Shown here one piece after another: positions 36,377 to 45,282 of a stretch of DNA of 64,000 bases. This stretch comes from Rhodopseudomonas sp. BR0M22. GTDB lineage: Bacteria > Pseudomonadota > Alphaproteobacteria > Rhizobiales > Xanthobacteraceae. Below the pieces are notes generated by a model. It ran no database searches. It saw only the letters and a program-made list of their open reading frames with translations, and had not been told where the DNA came from. Numbering within the stretch: the first letter of the stretch is position 1; each line of letters starts with the position of its first letter. The position numbers were made by a program, and so were the translations under genes. The stretch spans positions 1 to 64,000 of the forward strand of contig NZ_QUMK01000007.1 in NCBI RefSeq assembly GCF_010907035.1, written 5' to 3'.

Positions 36377-38695
36377 TCAGCGCCACTGTTTCTCTTCGGC
36401 CGACCAGGCCCAGCCGGGCAGCCTTCCAGGCTTGCTGAATGCCGAGACGACATTGGCAAGAAGGCGCGAAACGTTGTTGTCGAAATTTCGATACGGTAGC
36501 GACTGACTGAAGGCGATCGACCCGGTCGAGAACACCGCGCCGTCGTTCGGAGCGGTGAAATACACCATATCGGCGCGCACGCGATAGTCGTGCGATCCGG
36601 ACAGGCCCGGATAGGGATAGAGCACCTCCTCGACCACCGTCTGATAATTGTCGCTGTGCCCGCCCGAGGACGCGACGATCAGCGAGTGCGGCGGCGTGCC
36701 GAGCGTCAAGTCATAGCGATCGATCTCGATGCCGCCGGCCGCGCCCTGCGCGAGACCGAAATCACCGATGATTTCGCCTTCGATGCCCTCCATGATCCAG
36801 GACACGCGGCGATGCCAACTGTCGGGCATCCGTCGGAACGGCCGCGCAGAGTCGAACCCTTCCGAAATGAAGCCGACGCCGAACACCTTCTGGGGCGGGC
36901 GTCCGAGGTCCTTCCAGAGTCCGCTCTTCTGCCCCGTCGTCGCCAGATAGTATTCGCCGGGCCGGGCCTGCCAGGCGCGCATGCCGGAGTTCAGCTTGCG
37001 CACCTCCATGCACCAGGGATCTTCGCTGTGGTACCCGACATTCCAGTAATATCCATTGCCGCCGAGATAGACGAACCGGCCGCCGGAGGCGATGTAGTCT
37101 TCGGTGGCATCGAGAATCTGCTCGGAAACGTACTCCGGATGCGTTCCGCTCAGCACCACATTGTACGGCTTCAACGCCTCGATGCCGTCGCGATGCAAAT
37201 CCTCGTCCGTCGTCACGTCGTAGTCGTAGCCCATGTGGTCGAGCCAGGCGATGATCGACAGGTCCGCCGGAAACTGCCACGTCACACCCATCGACGACAT
37301 CCGGGCTTTCGGGCGCATGTTCAAGATCGGCCGTCGATAGGTGCTGTAGCAGACCCCTGCCCCATCGCCGTGATGATCGTAAAGCGACAGACCGAACTCC
37401 GCAGTCTGATACAGCTCGATGTCGACTTCCGAGAGAATTGGCGACTGGCCGGCGAGCGGTTGCATGATCTCGGCATCGAAACTGAGATGTTCATTCGCAT
37501 AGGCAAGATAGCTTCCGGTCGGCACCAGGAAGAGAATCGGCGCTTTCGGCCTGACGGGGCGCACGAAAAACACGATATACTCTTCGCGCATTCCTTTCGC
37601 GTCGCCCGTTCGTAAGCGGAAGGCGTAGGCGCCGCTCCTGACGTCGGGCACCTTGATCGAGCGCGTCAGCTCCCATCTGCAATCGATGATGGCGTCGTCG
37701 TGAAACTCGATGCCACCGTACTGCTGTGGCGCGAGCCGGAAGCAGTCGTCCCGCCCCTGCCAGTTGAACCCCGTCTGCGCGCGGACCGGACGGTTGTAAC
37801 CCGTCGCATGCAGACCATATGGGCCGGCATCGACCACCCGGTCGCCGATGCCGCGCTCGGTATAGCCCTGCGTGGTGTCCCAGAATGCGACCAGCCCGTC
37901 CTGCGGCGGCACCCCGCTGTCGCGGTAGCTGTCGAGCTCGGTCCGGGTCAGGACACGCTCGAACACGCCGGGACGATCGAGCTTGCCATTCAGACACTGG
38001 GTAACGAAGTCGCCGCGTAGCGTATGGTGATCCCGCGCTCCGGCGAGCAGGAATGGCAGCTCCGGCGGGTTCGCCGGACGGAAGCGCAGCGTCTCACGCA
38101 CATGCGACCGGAAGTCGACGTTGGCGACCTTGCTGAGCAGTGAATTGTAACGGGTCGAGACACCTTCCTGGTATAGCGTCGCGACCCCGGTGGTGGCATC
38201 GAATGTCGCCGCGACGAAATACCAATTGTTCTTCAACACGGGCACTTCGGCGTCGAGGTAATCGACTTCGCCACCGTCGCCGAACCCGAATTCGAGAAAG
38301 CCGTCCGGATTGAGCCACAATCCGTACCCGCGATTGCCGAACGCGTCCCACCGTCCGAGCAGACACTGCCGCCGGCCGCCCCCCGGATTGTTCGGATACA
38401 CGAAGGTGCAAAGGCTGAAGCTGCCGCCGAGGGCCAGACGCCGATCGGGATCGGCAACGGTCAGAAAGGATCCGACCTGGGTGAACTGCTTGCGGACTCG
38501 CCACACGCCATTCGCCTCGGAAGCGATCTCTTCCTCTCGATAGCCCGGACCAGCCGGATGAGCATCGCCGTGAATCAGCCTCACCAATTGCGCATCGACG
38601 ACGTCGGTACCGTCCGCGTGCACATAGAACGAGATGTCATCGCCGGGTTTGACCGAAATCTTGTCCGCGTATCCGAATATCTTCTTCTCGGCCAT
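36377..38695 (-). CDS. N,N-dimethylformamidase-type amidohydrolase, large (beta) subunit
   Basis: 772 residues, close in length to the large subunit of Paracoccus dimethylformamidase (about 760). The enzyme hydrolyses N,N-dimethylformamide to dimethylamine and formate at a mononuclear iron held by two tyrosines and a carboxylate. Residues about 90-290 form a LamG/concanavalin-like domain ('LLGRWDAFGNRGYGLWLNPD'). The C-terminal catalytic domain has 'LYDHHGDGAGVCYSTYRRPI' and 'YLGGNGYYWNVGYHSEDPW', Tyr-rich stretches typical of the family. Iron ligands were not assigned individually. GGAGAAG lies before the ATG. It follows the small-subunit gene by 36 bases at the end of the transporter operon. 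Actual substrate may be another small amide. Confidence 0.85.
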   Translation of the reverse strand: MAEKKIFGYADKISVKPGDDISFYVHADGTDVVDAQLVRLIHGDAHPAGPGYREEEIASEANGVWRVRKQFTQVGSFLTVADPDRRLALGGSFSLCTFVYPNNPGGGRRQCLLGRWDAFGNRGYGLWLNPDGFLEFGFGDGGEVDYLDAEVPVLKNNWYFVAATFDATTGVATLYQEGVSTRYNSLLSKVANVDFRSHVRETLRFRPANPPELPFLLAGARDHHTLRGDFVTQCLNGKLDRPGVFERVLTRTELDSYRDSGVPPQDGLVAFWDTTQGYTERGIGDRVVDAGPYGLHATGYNRPVRAQTGFNWQGRDDCFRLAPQQYGGIEFHDDAIIDCRWELTRSIKVPDVRSGAYAFRLRTGDAKGMREEYIVFFVRPVRPKAPILFLVPTGSYLAYANEHLSFDAEIMQPLAGQSPILSEVDIELYQTAEFGLSLYDHHGDGAGVCYSTYRRPILNMRPKARMSSMGVTWQFPADLSIIAWLDHMGYDYDVTTDEDLHRDGIEALKPYNVVLSGTHPEYVSEQILDATEDYIASGGRFVYLGGNGYYWNVGYHSEDPWCMEVRKLNSGMRAWQARPGEYYLATTGQKSGLWKDLGRPPQKVFGVGFISEGFDSARPFRRMPDSWHRRVSWIMEGIEGEIIGDFGLAQGAAGGIEIDRYDLTLGTPPHSLIVASSGGHSDNYQTVVEEVLYPYPGLSGSHDYRVRADMVYFTAPNDGAVFSTGSIAFSQSLPYRNFDNNVSRLLANVVSAFSKPGRLPGWAWSAEEKQWR

Positions 38696-38731: not shown

Positions 38732-39097
38732 TCAGGTTTCGAGTAGATCCTGCACACGGCGCAGGAACAGCGCGTGATAGGCCTCGTCGGGCGTTTCGTA
38801 GTTGCGATCTTCGACCATGCGCGGCGCGGTGCCGCGATGCCCCGACAGCGCGACGATGCGATAGGCCTTGAATTCTTCCAGCACCATGATCGCATATTTG
38901 TCGACCTGCCCCTGGCGCCGGAAATAGATCAACAGGCGTTCGAGCGCTTCACTGTGCTGGCCGAGCGGCTTGGATTTATGCTCGGCGATCACCGCGTCGG
39001 ACACCAGGCGCTTGAGAAAGTCTCGCTGCATCTTGTCGAAGCGGCGGAAATAGACCTGATCCTTGTCTTCCACCTCGGTGGCTTCTTCGGGCAACAT
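38732..39097 (-). CDS. N,N-dimethylformamidase-type amidohydrolase, small (alpha) subunit
   Basis: 121 residues from an internal ATG: MLPEEATEVEDKDQVYFRRF. The C-terminal half 'RLLIYFRRQGQVDKYAIMVL', then 'KAYRIVALSG' and 'DEAYHALFLRRVQDLL', follows the pattern of the Paracoccus small subunit (Y-F-R, K-Y-x-I, A-Y-R-I, E-A-x-H-A-x-F-L-R-R), as recalled. A perfect AAAGGAGG lies six bases before the ATG. The same frame is open upstream into livM, so the product may be made free, fused, or both. The large subunit gene follows by 36 bases. Confidence 0.78.
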   Translation of the reverse strand: MLPEEATEVEDKDQVYFRRFDKMQRDFLKRLVSDAVIAEHKSKPLGQHSEALERLLIYFRRQGQVDKYAIMVLEEFKAYRIVALSGHRGTAPRMVEDRNYETPDEAYHALFLRRVQDLLET

Positions 39098-40387
39098 CTC
39101 GCCTCCTTTCTCGGCTCGGGTTGATCGTCTCTCGCTCTTTTTCTTGTCGCGCCACGCCCGAAACTGAGACTTGATGCCGAAGATGCCGCCACGCAGGAAC
39201 AGCACCACGCCGAGCATGATCGCGCCGATCAGCACGAAGCGTAGTGGACCGAGATCGATCAACACTCGATCGATGAAAACGACGATCAACGTGCCGGCAA
39301 CCGCGCCCTCGGCGCGCCCGATGCCGCCGATCACCAGCATCGCCAGCGACAGCAGCAGCGTGTCGAACGAGAACAGGTTCGGCGAAGCGCCGCCGAAATG
39401 GGTCGCATAGAAACCGCCGATGAAGCCGAGCGCGGCGGACGAGATCAAAAACACCATGATGCGAGCGCGAATGAAATCGACGCCGCAGGCTTGTGCGAAG
39501 CCCTCCTTCTTCTCTTGGGCCATCCGCAGCAAACGGCCGAGTCGCTTGCCATCGACGAACCGATACAGGAACAGCGCAAGGATCATCACGAACAGCGCGG
39601 CGTAATAGCCGAGCAGCAGACGGTTGGTCTGCGAAAGCCCTGCCGGCAGATAGCTCGGCGCGCCGTATAGACCGCCGGTCGCCGAGCCGAACTGGCGCGA
39701 CTGCACCACATAAACGCGACACAGCTCGACGACACCGAGCGTCAGCAGCGCGTAATAGAAGCCGTCAAGCCGCATCGCCGGCAGTGCGATCAGGAGACCG
39801 AAAGCGAGACCGATCAGCACCCCCGCAAGCGGCAGCAGCCACCACGGCAATCCCAGCATAATCGCCATATAGGTGGTGCCGTAAGCCGCCGCGCCGACGA
39901 CCGCATAGGTTGCCAGCGAGAAGATGCCCGCGGTGCCGACCACCAGCATCCAGCACAGATTGATGGCCGCATAGATCGCGAAGACCGAGGCTGCGGACAT
40001 CGCCGTGTTGAAAGAACTGGCCGGCACGAAAAGCGGCATGATCAGGAACGCCGCGAGCGCCAGTACCCACCAGATCGGCCGCTTGTCGACGATGGTCTTT
40101 TCGCGGCGCATCGTCTTGGGATTGTATTCGCCATGGATGTTCAGCACGCGCCGGCGCGTCGGCCAGTAGCGCGTCCGCGTCCACAACGCTCCGCCGTGGC
40201 CGGGCCATTTGTAGTAATAGCGCAGCCGTCCGACGAGATACATTTTCGGACGAAACCGCGTGGTCTCGTCCCAGGTCACCTGATGCGACAGAAACGGATT
40301 GGTCACGACCTCCCGCGCCGGGGTCTCCGGATGCTGGGAGTCGGTCGGATCGATCCAGATCGGAGCGGTCGTGTCGGTCATCGTCAT
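38732..40387 (-). CDS. Liv-type ABC permease (LivM) in frame with amidohydrolase small subunit
   Basis: A single open frame of 551 residues. Residues 1-103 are an unusual soluble N-terminal extension. About 104-400 are a LivM-type permease with about nine hydrophobic segments ('LCWMLVVGTAGIFSLATYAV', 'MLVIGGIGRAEGAVAGTLIV'). A basic linker 'DKKKSERRSTRAEKGGE' leads at residue 431 into the amidohydrolase small subunit. The start ATG 40387 overlaps the livH stop as ATGA. Either the permease stop was lost, giving a permease-enzyme fusion, or ribosomes start anew at the internal ribosome site. A sequencing error removing a stop is also possible. Confidence 0.75.
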   Translation of the reverse strand: MTMTDTTAPIWIDPTDSQHPETPAREVVTNPFLSHQVTWDETTRFRPKMYLVGRLRYYYKWPGHGGALWTRTRYWPTRRRVLNIHGEYNPKTMRREKTIVDKRPIWWVLALAAFLIMPLFVPASSFNTAMSAASVFAIYAAINLCWMLVVGTAGIFSLATYAVVGAAAYGTTYMAIMLGLPWWLLPLAGVLIGLAFGLLIALPAMRLDGFYYALLTLGVVELCRVYVVQSRQFGSATGGLYGAPSYLPAGLSQTNRLLLGYYAALFVMILALFLYRFVDGKRLGRLLRMAQEKKEGFAQACGVDFIRARIMVFLISSAALGFIGGFYATHFGGASPNLFSFDTLLLSLAMLVIGGIGRAEGAVAGTLIVVFIDRVLIDLGPLRFVLIGAIMLGVVLFLRGGIFGIKSQFRAWRDKKKSERRSTRAEKGGEMLPEEATEVEDKDQVYFRRFDKMQRDFLKRLVSDAVIAEHKSKPLGQHSEALERLLIYFRRQGQVDKYAIMVLEEFKAYRIVALSGHRGTAPRMVEDRNYETPDEAYHALFLRRVQDLLET

Positions 40388-41265
40388 GCCTCGCGGGCCT
40401 TGTCGAGAATTCCGGAGATGCCGCGCGGACGGATCAGGAGAACCACGATGATGAGCAGGAACTGGGTGATCAGGACGTATTGACCGCCGAGAAAGGTCAA
40501 AGTCAGCGACTCGTTCACGCCGAGCATGATCGCACCGATCACCGCACCCGGAATGCTGCCGAGGCCGCCGACCAGCGCGATGCTCAGCCCCTTGATCATC
40601 GGCGTGATGCCGCTGAACGGCGCGACGTAGTAGGTCTGAGCCAGCAGCACAGCCGCCAACCCCGCGAGCGATCCGGTCAGCGCCATCACATAGATGCTGG
40701 TTCGGCGGACGCCGATGCCGACGATCGACGCCGCATGCGGGTTCATCATCATCGCGCGGATTTCGAGACCGCGGCGGCTGGAGCGCATCCAGAGCAGGAT
40801 CAGAGTGAGCAGCAGGATCGCCGACAGCGACGCCCCGAGCTTGTCGGACGTCACCACGACGCCGAGGATATCGGCGTTCCAGCTGCCGAACAGCCGCGGC
40901 AGAGACTTGGCCCGTGGGCCGAACCACCACAGCAGGATCTGGTTGCCGACCAGGCTGATGGCGAGCGTCGCGATCAGCGCGCGCAGCGGAAAATTCGGCT
41001 TGTCGTGGATCGGAATGAAGGCGAGCAGGCAGACGATGAGTCCGCCGATCGCACCGGTCAGAATTCCCGCGATCATCACGACCACCGGAAACGGGCCGAT
41101 ATACACGCTCGCCAGCCACGCACCGTAGCCGGACAGCGCGAAGATGAATCCGTAGGCCATGTTGACGAGACCCAGGCTCGACCAGGTGACGGAAATGCCG
41201 ATCGCCAGGGTGCCGTAGATGCAGGTCAGCGTGATCGCATTGGTGACGATGAAGCCCCAGTTCAT
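40384..41265 (-). CDS. Branched-chain amino acid-type ABC permease (LivH-like)
   Basis: 293 residues, about eight hydrophobic segments, LivH family. Typical elements: 'LGLVNMAYGFIFALSGYGAW', 'LEIRAMMMNPHAASIVGIGV' and 'GITPMIKGLSIALVGGLGSI', ending near the cytoplasmic EAA-like loop that contacts the ATPases. Start ATG overlaps the livF stop (ATGA at 41262-41265) and its own stop overlaps the next ATG, so translation is coupled on both sides. In this operon it probably carries small amides or related compounds rather than leucine. Confidence 0.88.
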   Translation of the reverse strand: MNWGFIVTNAITLTCIYGTLAIGISVTWSSLGLVNMAYGFIFALSGYGAWLASVYIGPFPVVVMIAGILTGAIGGLIVCLLAFIPIHDKPNFPLRALIATLAISLVGNQILLWWFGPRAKSLPRLFGSWNADILGVVVTSDKLGASLSAILLLTLILLWMRSSRRGLEIRAMMMNPHAASIVGIGVRRTSIYVMALTGSLAGLAAVLLAQTYYVAPFSGITPMIKGLSIALVGGLGSIPGAVIGAIMLGVNESLTLTFLGGQYVLITQFLLIIVVLLIRPRGISGILDKAREA

Positions 41266-42005
41266 CGGTTGCGCTCCATCGACAGGGTCTTAGACGCCGA
41301 AGCCTCGCCCTTCAGCTTGCCGGCATGCATTCCAATGATGCGGTCGACGCTGCCTTCGAGCAGCGCGACGTTCTGCTCGGCGATGACCATCGCCGAGCCG
41401 CCGAGTTCGACCGCCATCAAGGCCTCGACGACCGAGCGCCCGATCTTCGGGGCGAGCCCGAGCGACGGCTCGTCGACGAGAAACAATTCGGCATCGGACA
41501 TCAGGCCACGACCGATCGACACCATCCGGCGTTCGCCACCCGACAGGCGGCCGACCGGCGTCTTCATCAGCTTCTCCAGCGGCGGAAAAATCTGCAGGAT
41601 GCGCTTCTTGCGCAGCGCGCGTTCGGCCCAGGCCCGCTTGGTGAAGGCGCCGCTGTCGAGATGCTCCTCCACCGTCAGGCCGTGAAAGATCTCGTCGCCT
41701 TGCGGGATCAGCGCCAGGCCGCGCCGAACGATCAGATGCGTGTAACGTCCGGGCCCCTGGCTGCGGGTGCGACCGACCTCGTAGCCGTTGAGCTTAATCG
41801 AGCCGCGCTGCCAGCCTGTCAGCCCTGCGATCGCCTGAAACAAGGTCGACTTGCCGTGCCCGTTGAGGCCGACGAGGCCGATCCGCTCGCCGGCGAACAC
41901 CGTGAGGTCGAGGTCGTGGATCACCCGCATCGGTCCCCACCCCGCGGACAGTCCTTGGACATCGAGCACAGCCGGGCGGGTCGAGACGGTTTCGGGGGCA
42001 GCCAT
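41262..42005 (-). CDS. ABC transporter ATP-binding protein (LivF-like)
   Basis: 247 residues. Walker A 'GLNGHGKST', signature 'RLSGGERRMVSIGRGLM' and Walker B 'AELFLVDEPSLGLAPKIG' are intact, as is the H-loop region further on. It lacks the long insertion of LivG, as expected for LivF. ATG 42003-42005 overlaps the livG stop; a longer in-frame start upstream is only a shadow of livG. Pairs with LivG as the motor for the LivH/LivM permease. Confidence 0.92.
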   Translation of the reverse strand: MAAPETVSTRPAVLDVQGLSAGWGPMRVIHDLDLTVFAGERIGLVGLNGHGKSTLFQAIAGLTGWQRGSIKLNGYEVGRTRSQGPGRYTHLIVRRGLALIPQGDEIFHGLTVEEHLDSGAFTKRAWAERALRKKRILQIFPPLEKLMKTPVGRLSGGERRMVSIGRGLMSDAELFLVDEPSLGLAPKIGRSVVEALMAVELGGSAMVIAEQNVALLEGSVDRIIGMHAGKLKGEASASKTLSMERNR

Positions 42006-42742
42006 CAGTGCAACCCTCCGCCTGCTTCCGTCTCGAAATACGCCGCCTTCACCCGTGGATTTTCCAGGATCTCCGAGAGCAGCCCCTCGGCGATCGTCTC
42101 GCCGGCATCCATCACCAGCACACGATCGGCGATCGTATCGAGCAGCTCCATTCGATGCTCGATCAGCACGATCGCGATGTTGAGCTCCTTCGCCAGCACT
42201 CGCATGATGTCGTCGAGTTCGTCGATCTCGGAGTTGATCAACCCCGCCGCCGGCTCGTCCATCAACAGCACCGATGGCCGCCGCATCAACAGGCAGGTCA
42301 TCAGCAGCTTGCGTCGGTTGAGAGTGTCGAGCCGATCCGCCATCGTCCCGCCGGGGGTCCGAAAGCCGACCAGCCCCGCGCCCCATTCGGCATCATCCGG
42401 CGTCAGATATGGCCGATAGGCCTGGCGAGCAGCTTTCAAAACCTGTGCGACGGTCATGTCTTCCGGCACGATCGGCGTTTGGTAGGTCCGGCCGATGCCG
42501 AGCCGGGCCCTTTGATGCAACGGCAGACCGGTGACGTCCCGACCGTCATAGGTCACCGTGCCGCTCTTCGGCGAAATTCGGCCGGACAGCACCTCGAACA
42601 AGCTGGTCTTGCCCGCACCGTTAGGTCCGATGATCCCCATCACCTCGCCCGGCTTCACGTCGAGGGAGATCTCACGCAGGATCGACCGGCCACCGAGATC
42701 GAGCGCGATCCGGTCACAGGAGAAGATCGGCGACGGCGTCAT
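42005..42742 (-). CDS. ABC transporter ATP-binding protein (LivG-like)
   Basis: 245 residues. Walker A 'IGPNGAGKTSLFEVLSGRIS', Walker B 'SVLLMDEPAAGLINSEIDEL' and the H-loop 'IVLIEHRMELLDTIADRVLV' are present. The signature region is atypical: 'DRLDTLNRRKLLMTCLLMRR' in place of LSGGQ-x-R, so the canonical LSGGQ is degenerate. LivG proteins normally keep 'LSYGQQR'. The ATPase may rely on LivF for the composite site. It lies 16 bases after the binding-protein gene. Confidence 0.88.
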   Translation of the reverse strand: MTPSPIFSCDRIALDLGGRSILREISLDVKPGEVMGIIGPNGAGKTSLFEVLSGRISPKSGTVTYDGRDVTGLPLHQRARLGIGRTYQTPIVPEDMTVAQVLKAARQAYRPYLTPDDAEWGAGLVGFRTPGGTMADRLDTLNRRKLLMTCLLMRRPSVLLMDEPAAGLINSEIDELDDIMRVLAKELNIAIVLIEHRMELLDTIADRVLVMDAGETIAEGLLSEILENPRVKAAYFETEAGGGLH

Positions 42743-42758: not shown

Positions 42759-44054
42759 TCACCACCACGGCGCTTTCTGGAGCTTGTTCTCGACGAGAAC
42801 GTCCGGATAGATGATCTTGTGCTCGTTGTTCTGGACCTGGAAGAACAGCTGGGCCATGCCCTTCTCGAGGTCGGCAGCGCCGATCGCGTCGCCCGTGTCC
42901 GGATAGTGCGCGCACTCCTGGTACGGATTATCCATGCTCATGAAGCCGCAAACGCCACGATACGAGTTCTTGCGGATCCAGTCGCTCACGCCCTTGAAGT
43001 TCGACGGATCACCGACCGCCTCCCATGCCGCCTTGAGATAGTAGGTCGTGTCGTAGCCGTTGCCGGTGTAGCAAAGCCCCATGATGCCGGGAAAACGTTT
43101 CTTGTACTTGGCCCGGAACGCCTTGCCCTTGTCGTCGGCATAGACGCCGAGCACGGTGCTCCAGACGAAGCCTTCGGCGGCGGGGCCGGCCAGTTCCAAA
43201 AACTCCGGCTGCGACGGTCCGTATTGCAGATAGACCAGCGCCCCCTTCAGCGGATCGGCACTGTACTGCTTGACGAAGGCCGCATATTCGGCCGCCACCC
43301 AGTGGTCGATCATCACCGCGCCGGCGCCGATCTTCTTGATCTCCTGAATCACCGGCCCCCAATCCTGGACCGGGTATTGGATGTCCGTGATACCCGCCAG
43401 CTTGAACTCACTCTTGGGCAGCGAGGCCTGCAGCGCCTTGGAGATCGTCTGGTTGTAGGCGATCTGCTCCTGGACGATATGAACGCCGTTATTCAGAGGC
43501 TTCCATGTGCCCTGGTCCTTCATTGCCTTGAGAAACACCGGGAATGTGTGACCATAATGCACTTCGGACGGGTCGGTCTGAAATACGTGCGAGTATTTGT
43601 CCGGCTGCTTGACGACCAAGTCGGTCATATTGCGCTGCGTCAGTCCCCACAGCAGCGGCGCCTTGTAGCGCGCCGAGACGTCCGCGACCGGGATCGGCGT
43701 GAATACGAAGGCGCAGGACATCGCATGCACCTTGGCGTCGATCAGTTTGTTGATTGCAACCTGACCGCTTTCCGGGGACAGCGGATCGATGTCGACCACG
43801 ACCGGTTTGACCTGACGCCCGAGCACACCGCCGGCGGCGTTGATTTCCTCAAGCGCCAGCGTAGTTCCATTGAGATAGTCCTGGTGATCAGCAACCCCAG
43901 CTTGCGCAGTTTGGGCCGTCGGAACGCCGAGCAGGATCGGGTCGGCCGAGGCGGCGCGCGTCACGCTGGCGACGAAAGGGGCTGGAAACGCAGCAGCAGC
44001 CGTGCCGGCTGACGCAAGTTGAAGCAGTTTGCGACGCGAGACCTTGCCGACCAT
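42759..44054 (-). CDS. Periplasmic ABC substrate-binding protein (amide/urea/branched-chain amino acid type)
   Basis: 431 residues, type I periplasmic binding fold. The N-terminus 'KVSRRKLLQLASAGTAAAAF' has a twin-arginine motif, so export is probably by Tat. The mature protein starts near 'ADPILLGVPTAQTAQAG' and contains 'EEINAAGGVLGRQVKPVVVD', the usual Liv/Urt/Fmd-type segment. First gene of the seven-part operon ending in the amidohydrolase, so it should capture the compound that the enzyme hydrolyses or its product. Divergent from the AraC gene across 208 bases. Confidence 0.88.
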   Translation of the reverse strand: MVGKVSRRKLLQLASAGTAAAAFPAPFVASVTRAASADPILLGVPTAQTAQAGVADHQDYLNGTTLALEEINAAGGVLGRQVKPVVVDIDPLSPESGQVAINKLIDAKVHAMSCAFVFTPIPVADVSARYKAPLLWGLTQRNMTDLVVKQPDKYSHVFQTDPSEVHYGHTFPVFLKAMKDQGTWKPLNNGVHIVQEQIAYNQTISKALQASLPKSEFKLAGITDIQYPVQDWGPVIQEIKKIGAGAVMIDHWVAAEYAAFVKQYSADPLKGALVYLQYGPSQPEFLELAGPAAEGFVWSTVLGVYADDKGKAFRAKYKKRFPGIMGLCYTGNGYDTTYYLKAAWEAVGDPSNFKGVSDWIRKNSYRGVCGFMSMDNPYQECAHYPDTGDAIGAADLEKGMAQLFFQVQNNEHKIIYPDVLVENKLQKAPWW

Positions 44055-44262: not shown

Positions 44263-45282
44263 ATGAGTCAGAGGAACCACTACTCGACCGCCTCCCTATC
44301 CGCGGCGGACAGCATCGCCGCATGGCGCCAGGCGATGGCGGAGGTCTACTATCGACTTGATATCCAGGCCCGGCAGGACGATCGCGTTGTCGGCGAACTG
44401 ATCGACGTGCAATTCGCGGCAATGGGGGTGTCCAACTTCAGGGCGGATGCCCAACGGGTGATCAGGCGCAAGGAGTCGGCCAAAATCGACCAGTCCGAAG
44501 ACTTCGTATTCCTGTTTCCGACCCGGAAAGCCCTGCAATTCGAGCAACGGGGGCGCTCGGGTCTCGCCATGCCCGGTGCTGTCTTTCTCCTCAACTCCGC
44601 TGAAGACTACGTCGTCGACGTGCCCGACGGCTCCGAGAACATCACGATCAAGATCGACCGCGAACTGCTGATCGATCGTGTCAAAGGCATCGACGGTCTT
44701 TGCGCGACGATGAATATCGGGAACTCAAAACTCGTCCCGGTCGTCGCAACCCTGGGCACGCAACTTCTGAGCCTTCCACCCGGCGAGCACGCCGACAGGT
44801 TGCAGCAGTCGGTCATCGATCTGATTTGCCTGATGCTCGACTTGCGGGAGGAGCCGCAGGACGGCGCGTTCATCCGGCAGCGGCTGGCTTCCTCGTTGTT
44901 CAGCCGGATCGATCACTATCTCCAGCACAACCTGAAGGATCACGAGCTCACCCCGGATCAAGCGGCGCGTGAGCACAAGATCTCGGTCCGCTACCTGCAC
45001 AAGATCTTTCACTATCACGGCACGTCGTTCGGGCAGCGGTTACTTGAACTCCGGCTGCAGCGCGCCCGCCAACTGATCGTTCGGCACGGCGGGGCCAACC
45101 ACGTCAACCTCGGCCAGGTCGCCTACGAGTGCGGCTTCACCAGCCAATCTTACTTTTCGACCTGTTACCGCCGACGCTTTGGTCTGACGCCGCGTCAATC
45201 CGGACAGCTTGTCACGACTGGCGAGAACGTCGCGCAAGCCGAACGGATCGACATCAGGCCCCTCGACGACGACGCCGAGTGA
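44263..45282 (+). CDS. AraC-family transcriptional regulator of the amide operon
   Basis: 339 residues. The N-terminal 180 residues are an AraC-binding-like sensor domain ('DFVFLFPTRKALQFEQRGRS'). The C-terminal double helix-turn-helix contains 'EHKISVRYLHKIFHYHGTSF' and 'VAYECGFTSQSYFSTCYRRR', a standard AraC pair. Divergent from the binding-protein/Liv/amidohydrolase operon and its likely activator in response to an amide. No other candidate regulator is adjacent. Confidence 0.88.
   Translation: MSQRNHYSTASLSAADSIAAWRQAMAEVYYRLDIQARQDDRVVGELIDVQFAAMGVSNFRADAQRVIRRKESAKIDQSEDFVFLFPTRKALQFEQRGRSGLAMPGAVFLLNSAEDYVVDVPDGSENITIKIDRELLIDRVKGIDGLCATMNIGNSKLVPVVATLGTQLLSLPPGEHADRLQQSVIDLICLMLDLREEPQDGAFIRQRLASSLFSRIDHYLQHNLKDHELTPDQAAREHKISVRYLHKIFHYHGTSFGQRLLELRLQRARQLIVRHGGANHVNLGQVAYECGFTSQSYFSTCYRRRFGLTPRQSGQLVTTGENVAQAERIDIRPLDDDAE

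Follow-up and report, generated by a model that had tools for sequence, protein, structure and literature searches.

The Paracoccus N,N-dimethylformamidase (DmfA1/DmfA2, structure 6LVB) is a described enzyme to which the present locus can be compared. As far as its account in PMC7686228 goes, it is an α2β2 enzyme or the dimer thereof, its large (β) subunit is inactive alone and the N-terminus of its small (α) subunit is wedged between two large subunits; Y399, Y440 and E521 are named there as iron ligands, H519 as the catalytic residue and F693 as a residue of the pocket. In P. aminophilus (plasmid pAMI2) the two genes are adjacent in the order α-β, α is a free gene under a LuxR-type activator (PMC4543880), and no transporter is annotated in the stretch examined. 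The homologous locus of Methylobacterium DM1 has a free α gene as well, again with no transporter annotated nearby. The second point of reference is the family of LivFGHMK and UrtABCDE importers, with a binding protein, two ATPases and two BPD_transp_2 permeases.

The window, a stretch of 64,000 nucleotides from Rhodopseudomonas sp. BR0M22, carries on its minus strand an operon predicted to encode a branched-chain-type ABC importer together with an iron-dependent amidohydrolase that belongs to the N,N-dimethylformamidase family. It begins with a periplasmic substrate-binding protein (42759..44054, Peripla_BP_6), followed by an ABC ATPase of LivG/UrtD type recognized by profile matches (42005..42742), a second one of LivF/UrtE type (41262..42008), a first permease of LivH/UrtB type (40384..41265), the fused gene treated below (38732..40387, 551 aa), which overlaps the first permease by a 4-nt ATGA, and the large subunit (36377..38695, 772 aa, DMFA2_C). 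The start of the second ATPase is approximate: its longest open reading frame extends about 126 codons further upstream (42008-42386, minus strand) and there overlaps the first ATPase gene, which is read in a different frame; the true start probably lies near 42008. A divergent AraC-family, FeaR-like gene, found by profile matches at 44263..45282 on the plus strand, is a possible regulator of the operon. The genes for the importer components thus stand in the order known from LivFGHMK and UrtABCDE, but here the second permease bears an enzyme subunit. That permease contains BPD_transp_2 and is accompanied by a binding protein, a second permease and two ATPases, as a LivM/UrtC-type permease should be. 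Its scores lie far under the NCBIfam cut-offs (70.6 vs 366 bits for LivM, 50.2 vs 296.2 bits for UrtC), and it is best classed as a relative of LivM and UrtC, neither LivM nor UrtC proper.

Translation of 38732-40387 (minus strand) gave 551 codons with a sole stop at the end, which confirmed the preliminary description in its claim that no stop separates the permease from the small subunit. The permease part (residues 1-403, 39179..40387) comprises eight hydrophobic segments by hydropathy, with BPD_transp_2 at residues 131-394. It is followed by a conserved basic linker (residues 404-430, 39098..39178) ending in QFRAWRDKKKSERRSTRAEKGGE, for which alignment of 10 Rhodopseudomonas/Bradyrhizobium-type loci gave a dN/dS of 0.063. 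The small subunit (38732..39097, 121 aa) was assigned to the N,N-dimethylformamidase family by sequence and fold: fused residues 435-548 matched the Paracoccus small subunit 6LVB_B (E 6.5e-10), as did the predicted structure of the domain in Foldseek (E 3.1e-5, TM 0.78 on target). At the boundary, the ribosome site and ATG that had been described were found as AAAGGAGG-CGAG-ATG, with the in-frame Shine-Dalgarno (SD) sequence AAAGGAGG at 39102..39109 and the ATG, the proposed start of a free α, at 39095..39097. The product sizes suggested earlier, about 60 and 14 kDa, agree with calculated masses of 62.0 kDa for the fusion and 14.4 kDa for free α.

Past the last hydrophobic segment comes a strongly positive tail, with 10 K/R against 4 D/E in residues 403-431. 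Positively charged segments of membrane proteins are cytoplasmic (positive-inside rule), so α would reside in the cytoplasm. An AF2 model of the whole fusion was weak (pLDDT 62.5, pTM 0.45) and could not place the domains relative to each other, and the fold search with the predicted structure firmly confirmed the α domain only. The large subunit, encoded by the next gene, matched 6LVB_A with an E value of 1.6e-186. In this alignment all three iron ligands and the catalytic histidine are the same residue, and F693 of the pocket reads as a tyrosine in the window.

Scanning the genome collection with α alone yielded 22 loci, and in all of them α lay in frame behind the permease. The junction stop codon that the preliminary description had proposed to look for in homologous operons was absent from every one. 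The small subunit was thus found fused in the window and in 22/22 loci, not encoded solely as a separate gene as in the characterised dimethylformamidases; what differs is the gene arrangement and not the homology. The α of P. aminophilus is 31% identical to that of the window. In two distant relatives (L151, L152), reading of the frames showed LivM-like and α genes that are separate and adjacent. A base-calling error is an unlikely cause of the open frame because other Rhodopseudomonas assemblies share it (L036, L037 and genome G1194), the first two being R. palustris assemblies and the nearest named relatives of the window. More generally, conservation of the fused frame across loci ruled out a sequencing error or a chance stop loss.

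For a broader comparison, overlapping samples of 397 genomes from the order, 385 from the class, 398 from the phylum and 296 from the family were searched. Any α match was found in 42, 27, 10 and 25 of these genomes, respectively, many of them distant free α subunits. A plasmid search matched 32 records; phage records gave no match. We kept 50 non-redundant loci in which α and permease profiles occurred on one open frame, so that all of them are fused by virtue of the criterion. Not implied by it, the junction residues occurred at the same offset in 50/50. The fused loci span alpha-, beta- and gammaproteobacteria, the latter two classes according to labels of metagenome-assembled genomes, and include Rhodopseudomonas, Tardiphaga, Bradyrhizobium, Methylorubrum, Hansschlegelia, Aestuariivirga, plasmids of Rhizobium and Aminobacter and an uncultured Pelagibacteraceae genome. 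The fused frame is, judged from this distribution, old. In the alignment, few parts of the fused protein are as conserved as the linker and the stretch EKGGE-x-LPEEATE.

Several other sequences came up in these searches. An 'inner-membrane translocator' of Halalkalicoccus, a candidate fusion outside the proteobacteria, turned out to be a short free α with stops upstream; on H. jeotgali plasmid 2 (L058:5800-8673) it forms a haloarchaeal pair of free α and β, and its name has perhaps spread from fused homologues. Locus L137 (genome G682) was rejected as a fusion, as it offered an open frame only: there was no permease profile match, Pfam was blank and its 5' part was read as spurious. Weak α-like matches (E about 1e-4 to 1e-3) inside frames of 370-540 codons in other alphaproteobacteria (L082-L090, L154-L159) recurred at similar query positions.

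We sorted the 50 loci by downstream genes and clade into four groups. Group G1 (29 loci, including the window) has one fused α followed by β, with two β genes in L064; G4 (9 loci) has the same organization but forms a clade of its own, in which the permease N-terminus is shorter. Group G2 (6 loci) carries a fused α, a tandem free α and β, and G3 (6 loci) a fused α, β, a free α and a second β. We refer to G1 and G4 together as single-α loci (38) and to G2 and G3 as free-α loci (12). The available flanks of the G1 and G4 loci showed no second α, those of L023 and L065 being cut by contig ends. In the tree, G2 and G3 formed two separate clades inside a large, otherwise G1 clade, some inner branches of which are weak, indicating that the free α appeared twice. 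The window's genome contains one α-like sequence at E<=0.001. The genomes of three G1 loci (L010-L012), by comparison, hold a free α elsewhere (50-53% identity) and still keep the junction site, and R. palustris 2.1.18 carries one G1 and one G3 locus; the link between a free α and loss of the site thus applies at the level of the operon and not of the whole genome.

Some individual operons deserve mention. On plasmid pMDW2 of Aminobacter sp. MDW-2 (L064:4711-11183), one fused α precedes two different large-subunit genes, so that one α source may serve two β subunits; the strain appears in parts of the literature on methomyl and carbamate degradation. The operons L054, L132 and L140-L142, arranged as fused α-β1-free α-β2, combine two enzyme pairs with one importer and perhaps give a mixed enzyme. 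In a single locus (L138:5355-6645, genome G1063), about 1.3 kb lie between fused α and large subunit.

The junction letters distinguish these groups. In G1 they read GAR AAA GGN GGN GAR ATG in 28/29 loci, the exception being L052 with GAA AGA GGA GGA GAA ATG. In G4 the ATG comes one codon later in 7/9, with TTG there and no ATG in L018 and L020, and the lysine codon is AAA in 5/9 only. A junction ATG is thus present in 36/38 single-α loci, the remaining two having TTG only, and absent in 8/12 free-α loci: an alanine codon occupies its position in all six G2 loci (in L015 and L109 the codon after it is TTG, as in L018 and L020), and in G3, where AAGG is kept, CTG is found in two loci and ATG in four. 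The Lys-Gly-Gly codons are AAG GGC GGC in 6/6 G3 and 2/6 G2 loci, and among the other G2 loci AAG GGC GGG in two and AAA GGC GGC in two. The difference between groups resides in synonymous letters, as the residues EKGGE are identical in all 50 loci but L052: the codons are on the whole unusual and compatible with an SD sequence in single-α loci and ordinary in free-α loci.

The codon-column and window tests on these letters, like the mRNA-openness test below, were chosen after the junction letters had been seen. The junction lysine codon was AAA in 28/28 G1 sequences, while the 13 other conserved lysine columns in G1 were mainly AAG in 11 cases, mainly AAA in two and all AAA in none. Five of the eight most codon-anomalous columns, out of 237 conserved ones in G1, fall at −10 to +1. 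Among the 507 windows of G1, those at the junction took ranks 1-6, and among the 473 of G4 the junction came first; in G2 and G3 the junction windows were unremarkable. The median codon anomaly was z = 2.48 in single-α vs −0.21 in free-α loci, values above 0 occurring in 36/38 (not in L052 and L065) and 4/12, respectively; rank tests overstate such differences since the loci are related. The start-like signature shows in most of the 38 single-α loci; the aligned ones among these go down to 48% identity to the window. Apart from the lysine codon, the junction letters are not frozen and vary within rare codons: pS at −8..+2 was 0.609, as compared to 0.400 in the permease core of the Rhodopseudomonas/Bradyrhizobium set.

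The SD motif alone proves little, and the case is carried by the comparative evidence. SD energy compared with synonymous resampling was weak (median P 0.148 in G1, 0.084 in G4), partly because bulges are permitted in the duplex calculation and the final 3 nt had been trimmed off. The pattern AAAGGAGGN{3,7}ATG occurred once in the window vs 0.04 times expected from shuffles, and 7 times in the 5.29-Mb genome vs 4 for a reversed control; of the other six genomic motifs, one marks the start of an ABC ATPase frame, three the starts of frames with 133-277 codons, and the remaining two those of frames with 2 and 7 codons. A conserved SD-like sequence with a start codon at a domain boundary, as in dual-product genes with an internal in-frame start, was observed here.

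Openness of the mRNA at the junction pointed in the same direction. Its median z was 1.38 in the 38 single-α vs −1.39 in the 12 free-α loci, and it was positive in 37/38 (the exception, L007, at −0.24) and, slightly, in 2/12. The β start codons, taken as real starts, had an openness of 1.66 (n=50), and other in-frame internal ATGs of G1 one of 0.05 (n=345). Since the 90th percentile of the latter is 1.20, as compared to a junction median of 1.25, about one in ten of these ATGs is as open as a typical junction, which therefore does not stand out by openness alone. Four genomes contain both locus types, which removes host differences: in all four pairs the single-α locus had the higher openness, and in three of them also the higher codon anomaly, genome G1200 being reversed; genome G1300 also holds the G3 locus L055, which was outside this comparison. 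An independent-pairs sign test on the tree has two contrasts only and cannot reach significance.

These observations bear on what the fused gene produces. The preliminary description had proposed that one frame yields both a membrane-tethered and a free enzyme subunit, with the hydrolase at the transporter exit. The fused frame is plainly present; the two products we infer from a comparison of loci, where the conserved frame, the selected linker and a start-like signature tracking single-α loci speak for them. We consider it likely that one gene provides membrane-tethered α and free α and that the hydrolase is thereby docked on its own ABC importer. A free α is very likely made from the conserved internal start in addition to the fusion.

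The alternatives are less probable to different degrees. The junction start might be a relic, α's old SD sequence and ATG having predated a stop loss in LivM, in which case only the fusion would matter now. The tightly adjacent, separate LivM-like and α genes of L151 and L152 would be a natural starting point for such a history, and the junction as a whole does not stand out by a low synonymous change. Against it, the start-like signature is seen in most of the 38 single-α loci, down to the identity given above, and is missing in most of the 12 free-α loci; we regard this explanation as unlikely. Conversely, free α might be the working subunit and the fused form a by-product with no role at the importer, in line with the P. 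aminophilus enzyme and the homologous DM1 locus, which have a free α gene only. Purifying selection argues against it: the linker gave dN/dS values in chosen pairs of 0.063 and 0.085 in G1, 0.022 in G2, 0.010 in G3 and 0.063 in G4, and the fused α 0.042-0.100 in the G2/G3 pairs, where the linker has 0.010-0.022. In the pairs tested the linker thus appears to be under purifying selection even in groups that possess a free α, and we regard a fusion without a role at the importer as unlikely too.

Two further explanations do without a free subunit or without internal initiation. An SD-like sequence sitting exactly between the membrane and the soluble domain might slow ribosomes and aid folding, no free subunit being made. 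The ATG a few bases downstream and an openness near that of β starts would then be left unexplained, as would the missing signature in the two clades that gained a free α while keeping the same domains, and we find this quite improbable. Proteolytic cleavage in the conserved linker might instead release the free subunit, in line with the high conservation of the linker and of EKGGE-x-LPEEATE. Cleavage, however, gives no reason why AAA should be preferred to AAG or why an ATG and open mRNA should be selected, and EKGGE is kept in free-α loci though the nucleotide features are mostly lost there; of the explanations considered, we give this one the least credence.

Synthesis of tethered and free α could proceed as follows. 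Ribosomes starting at the permease start and finishing the frame would give a permease with α on its cytoplasmic tail, a product that is apparently kept, judging from the selection on linker and α. A second initiation at the junction would give free α, as suggested by the start-like signature being missing where a separate α gene lies downstream. β would then bind tethered and free α, resulting in an enzyme docked where the importer opens to the cytoplasm. Placing the hydrolase at the transporter exit is reasonable because the gene for the partner large subunit comes next and the last membrane span is followed by a positive tail. Channelling of the imported amide, which the preliminary description also proposed, would be a conjecture beyond that.

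Why both forms of α should be needed may follow from stoichiometry. An importer of the LivH/LivM type carries one LivM. Given that the characterised enzyme is α2β2, that its β alone is inactive and that there is one LivM per importer, the tether would account for one α and a second, free one would be required. One tethered α of two would explain why the loci examined show a start-like site within the frame or else a separate α gene downstream, and why G2 has two α for one β. We therefore propose, tentatively and with less than even confidence, an importer-docked hydrolase with one α per permease tail and the second from the internal start or a tandem gene, in which an asymmetric α-tethered/α-free/β2 enzyme receives the emerging substrate and one gene determines how much of the enzyme is docked relative to free. 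The position of the α N-terminus between large subunits in Paracoccus may make an attached permease hard to fit; it could be an obstacle to this arrangement or the reason for the asymmetry of the enzyme.

The enzyme probably acts on a small N-substituted amide. AceAB, the acetamiprid amidohydrolase, presented in the relevant part of PMC11573777 as a two-subunit dimethylformamidase relative, and the N-acetyl-(R)-β-phenylalanine acylase 8HUY, which matches the window's large subunit with an E value of 6.8e-111, act on other substrates, so N,N-dimethylformamide cannot be assumed; it would be a guess from the family. On Rhizobium plasmid pMK-2 (L060:11107-14091) the fused operon is adjoined by fghA and gfa, formaldehyde detoxification genes for S-formylglutathione hydrolase and S-(hydroxymethyl)glutathione synthase, and by a metal/formaldehyde-sensitive repressor, which may be a hint to a methylated amide. 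Among the 30 largest ORF clusters from 37 loci, many antisense and from flanks of a few kb, no clue beyond the operon was found.

A search of the open-access literature returned no description of such a fusion. The enzyme subunit is invisible in databases, since matches are annotated merely as branched-chain amino acid permease: 24 of the 25 best plasmid matches bear this name and the remaining one is unannotated, the fusion having been checked in two of the 25 (L060, L064). If our reading is correct, nature has built an ABC importer with the enzyme that consumes its cargo, the docked amount being set by an internal start, and the two lineages with a separate α gene and an eroded start seem to provide a natural control. 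Coupling between transporter and enzyme would become directly testable with silent mutations.

In conclusion, the locus shares homologous subunits, gene adjacency and the order α-β with the N,N-dimethylformamidase of P. aminophilus, but differs in having α fused to a permease, an importer operon and an AraC-type gene alongside. In producing two proteins it would resemble Cas8b/Cas11b, and also cas10 of type I-D and cas8 of type I-C, where, as reported in the pertinent parts of PMC11899642, one frame encodes a C-terminal small subunit that is also made from an internal methionine. There, both products join one soluble complex, as demonstrated experimentally; here, the long product would be a membrane permease and the short one an enzyme subunit, both predicted from sequence. 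The same source describes Cas types with the small subunit from an internal start and others with a separate gene for it, and the experimental change of ATG to GCG reported there for Cas8b/Cas11b resembles the alanine codons of G2.
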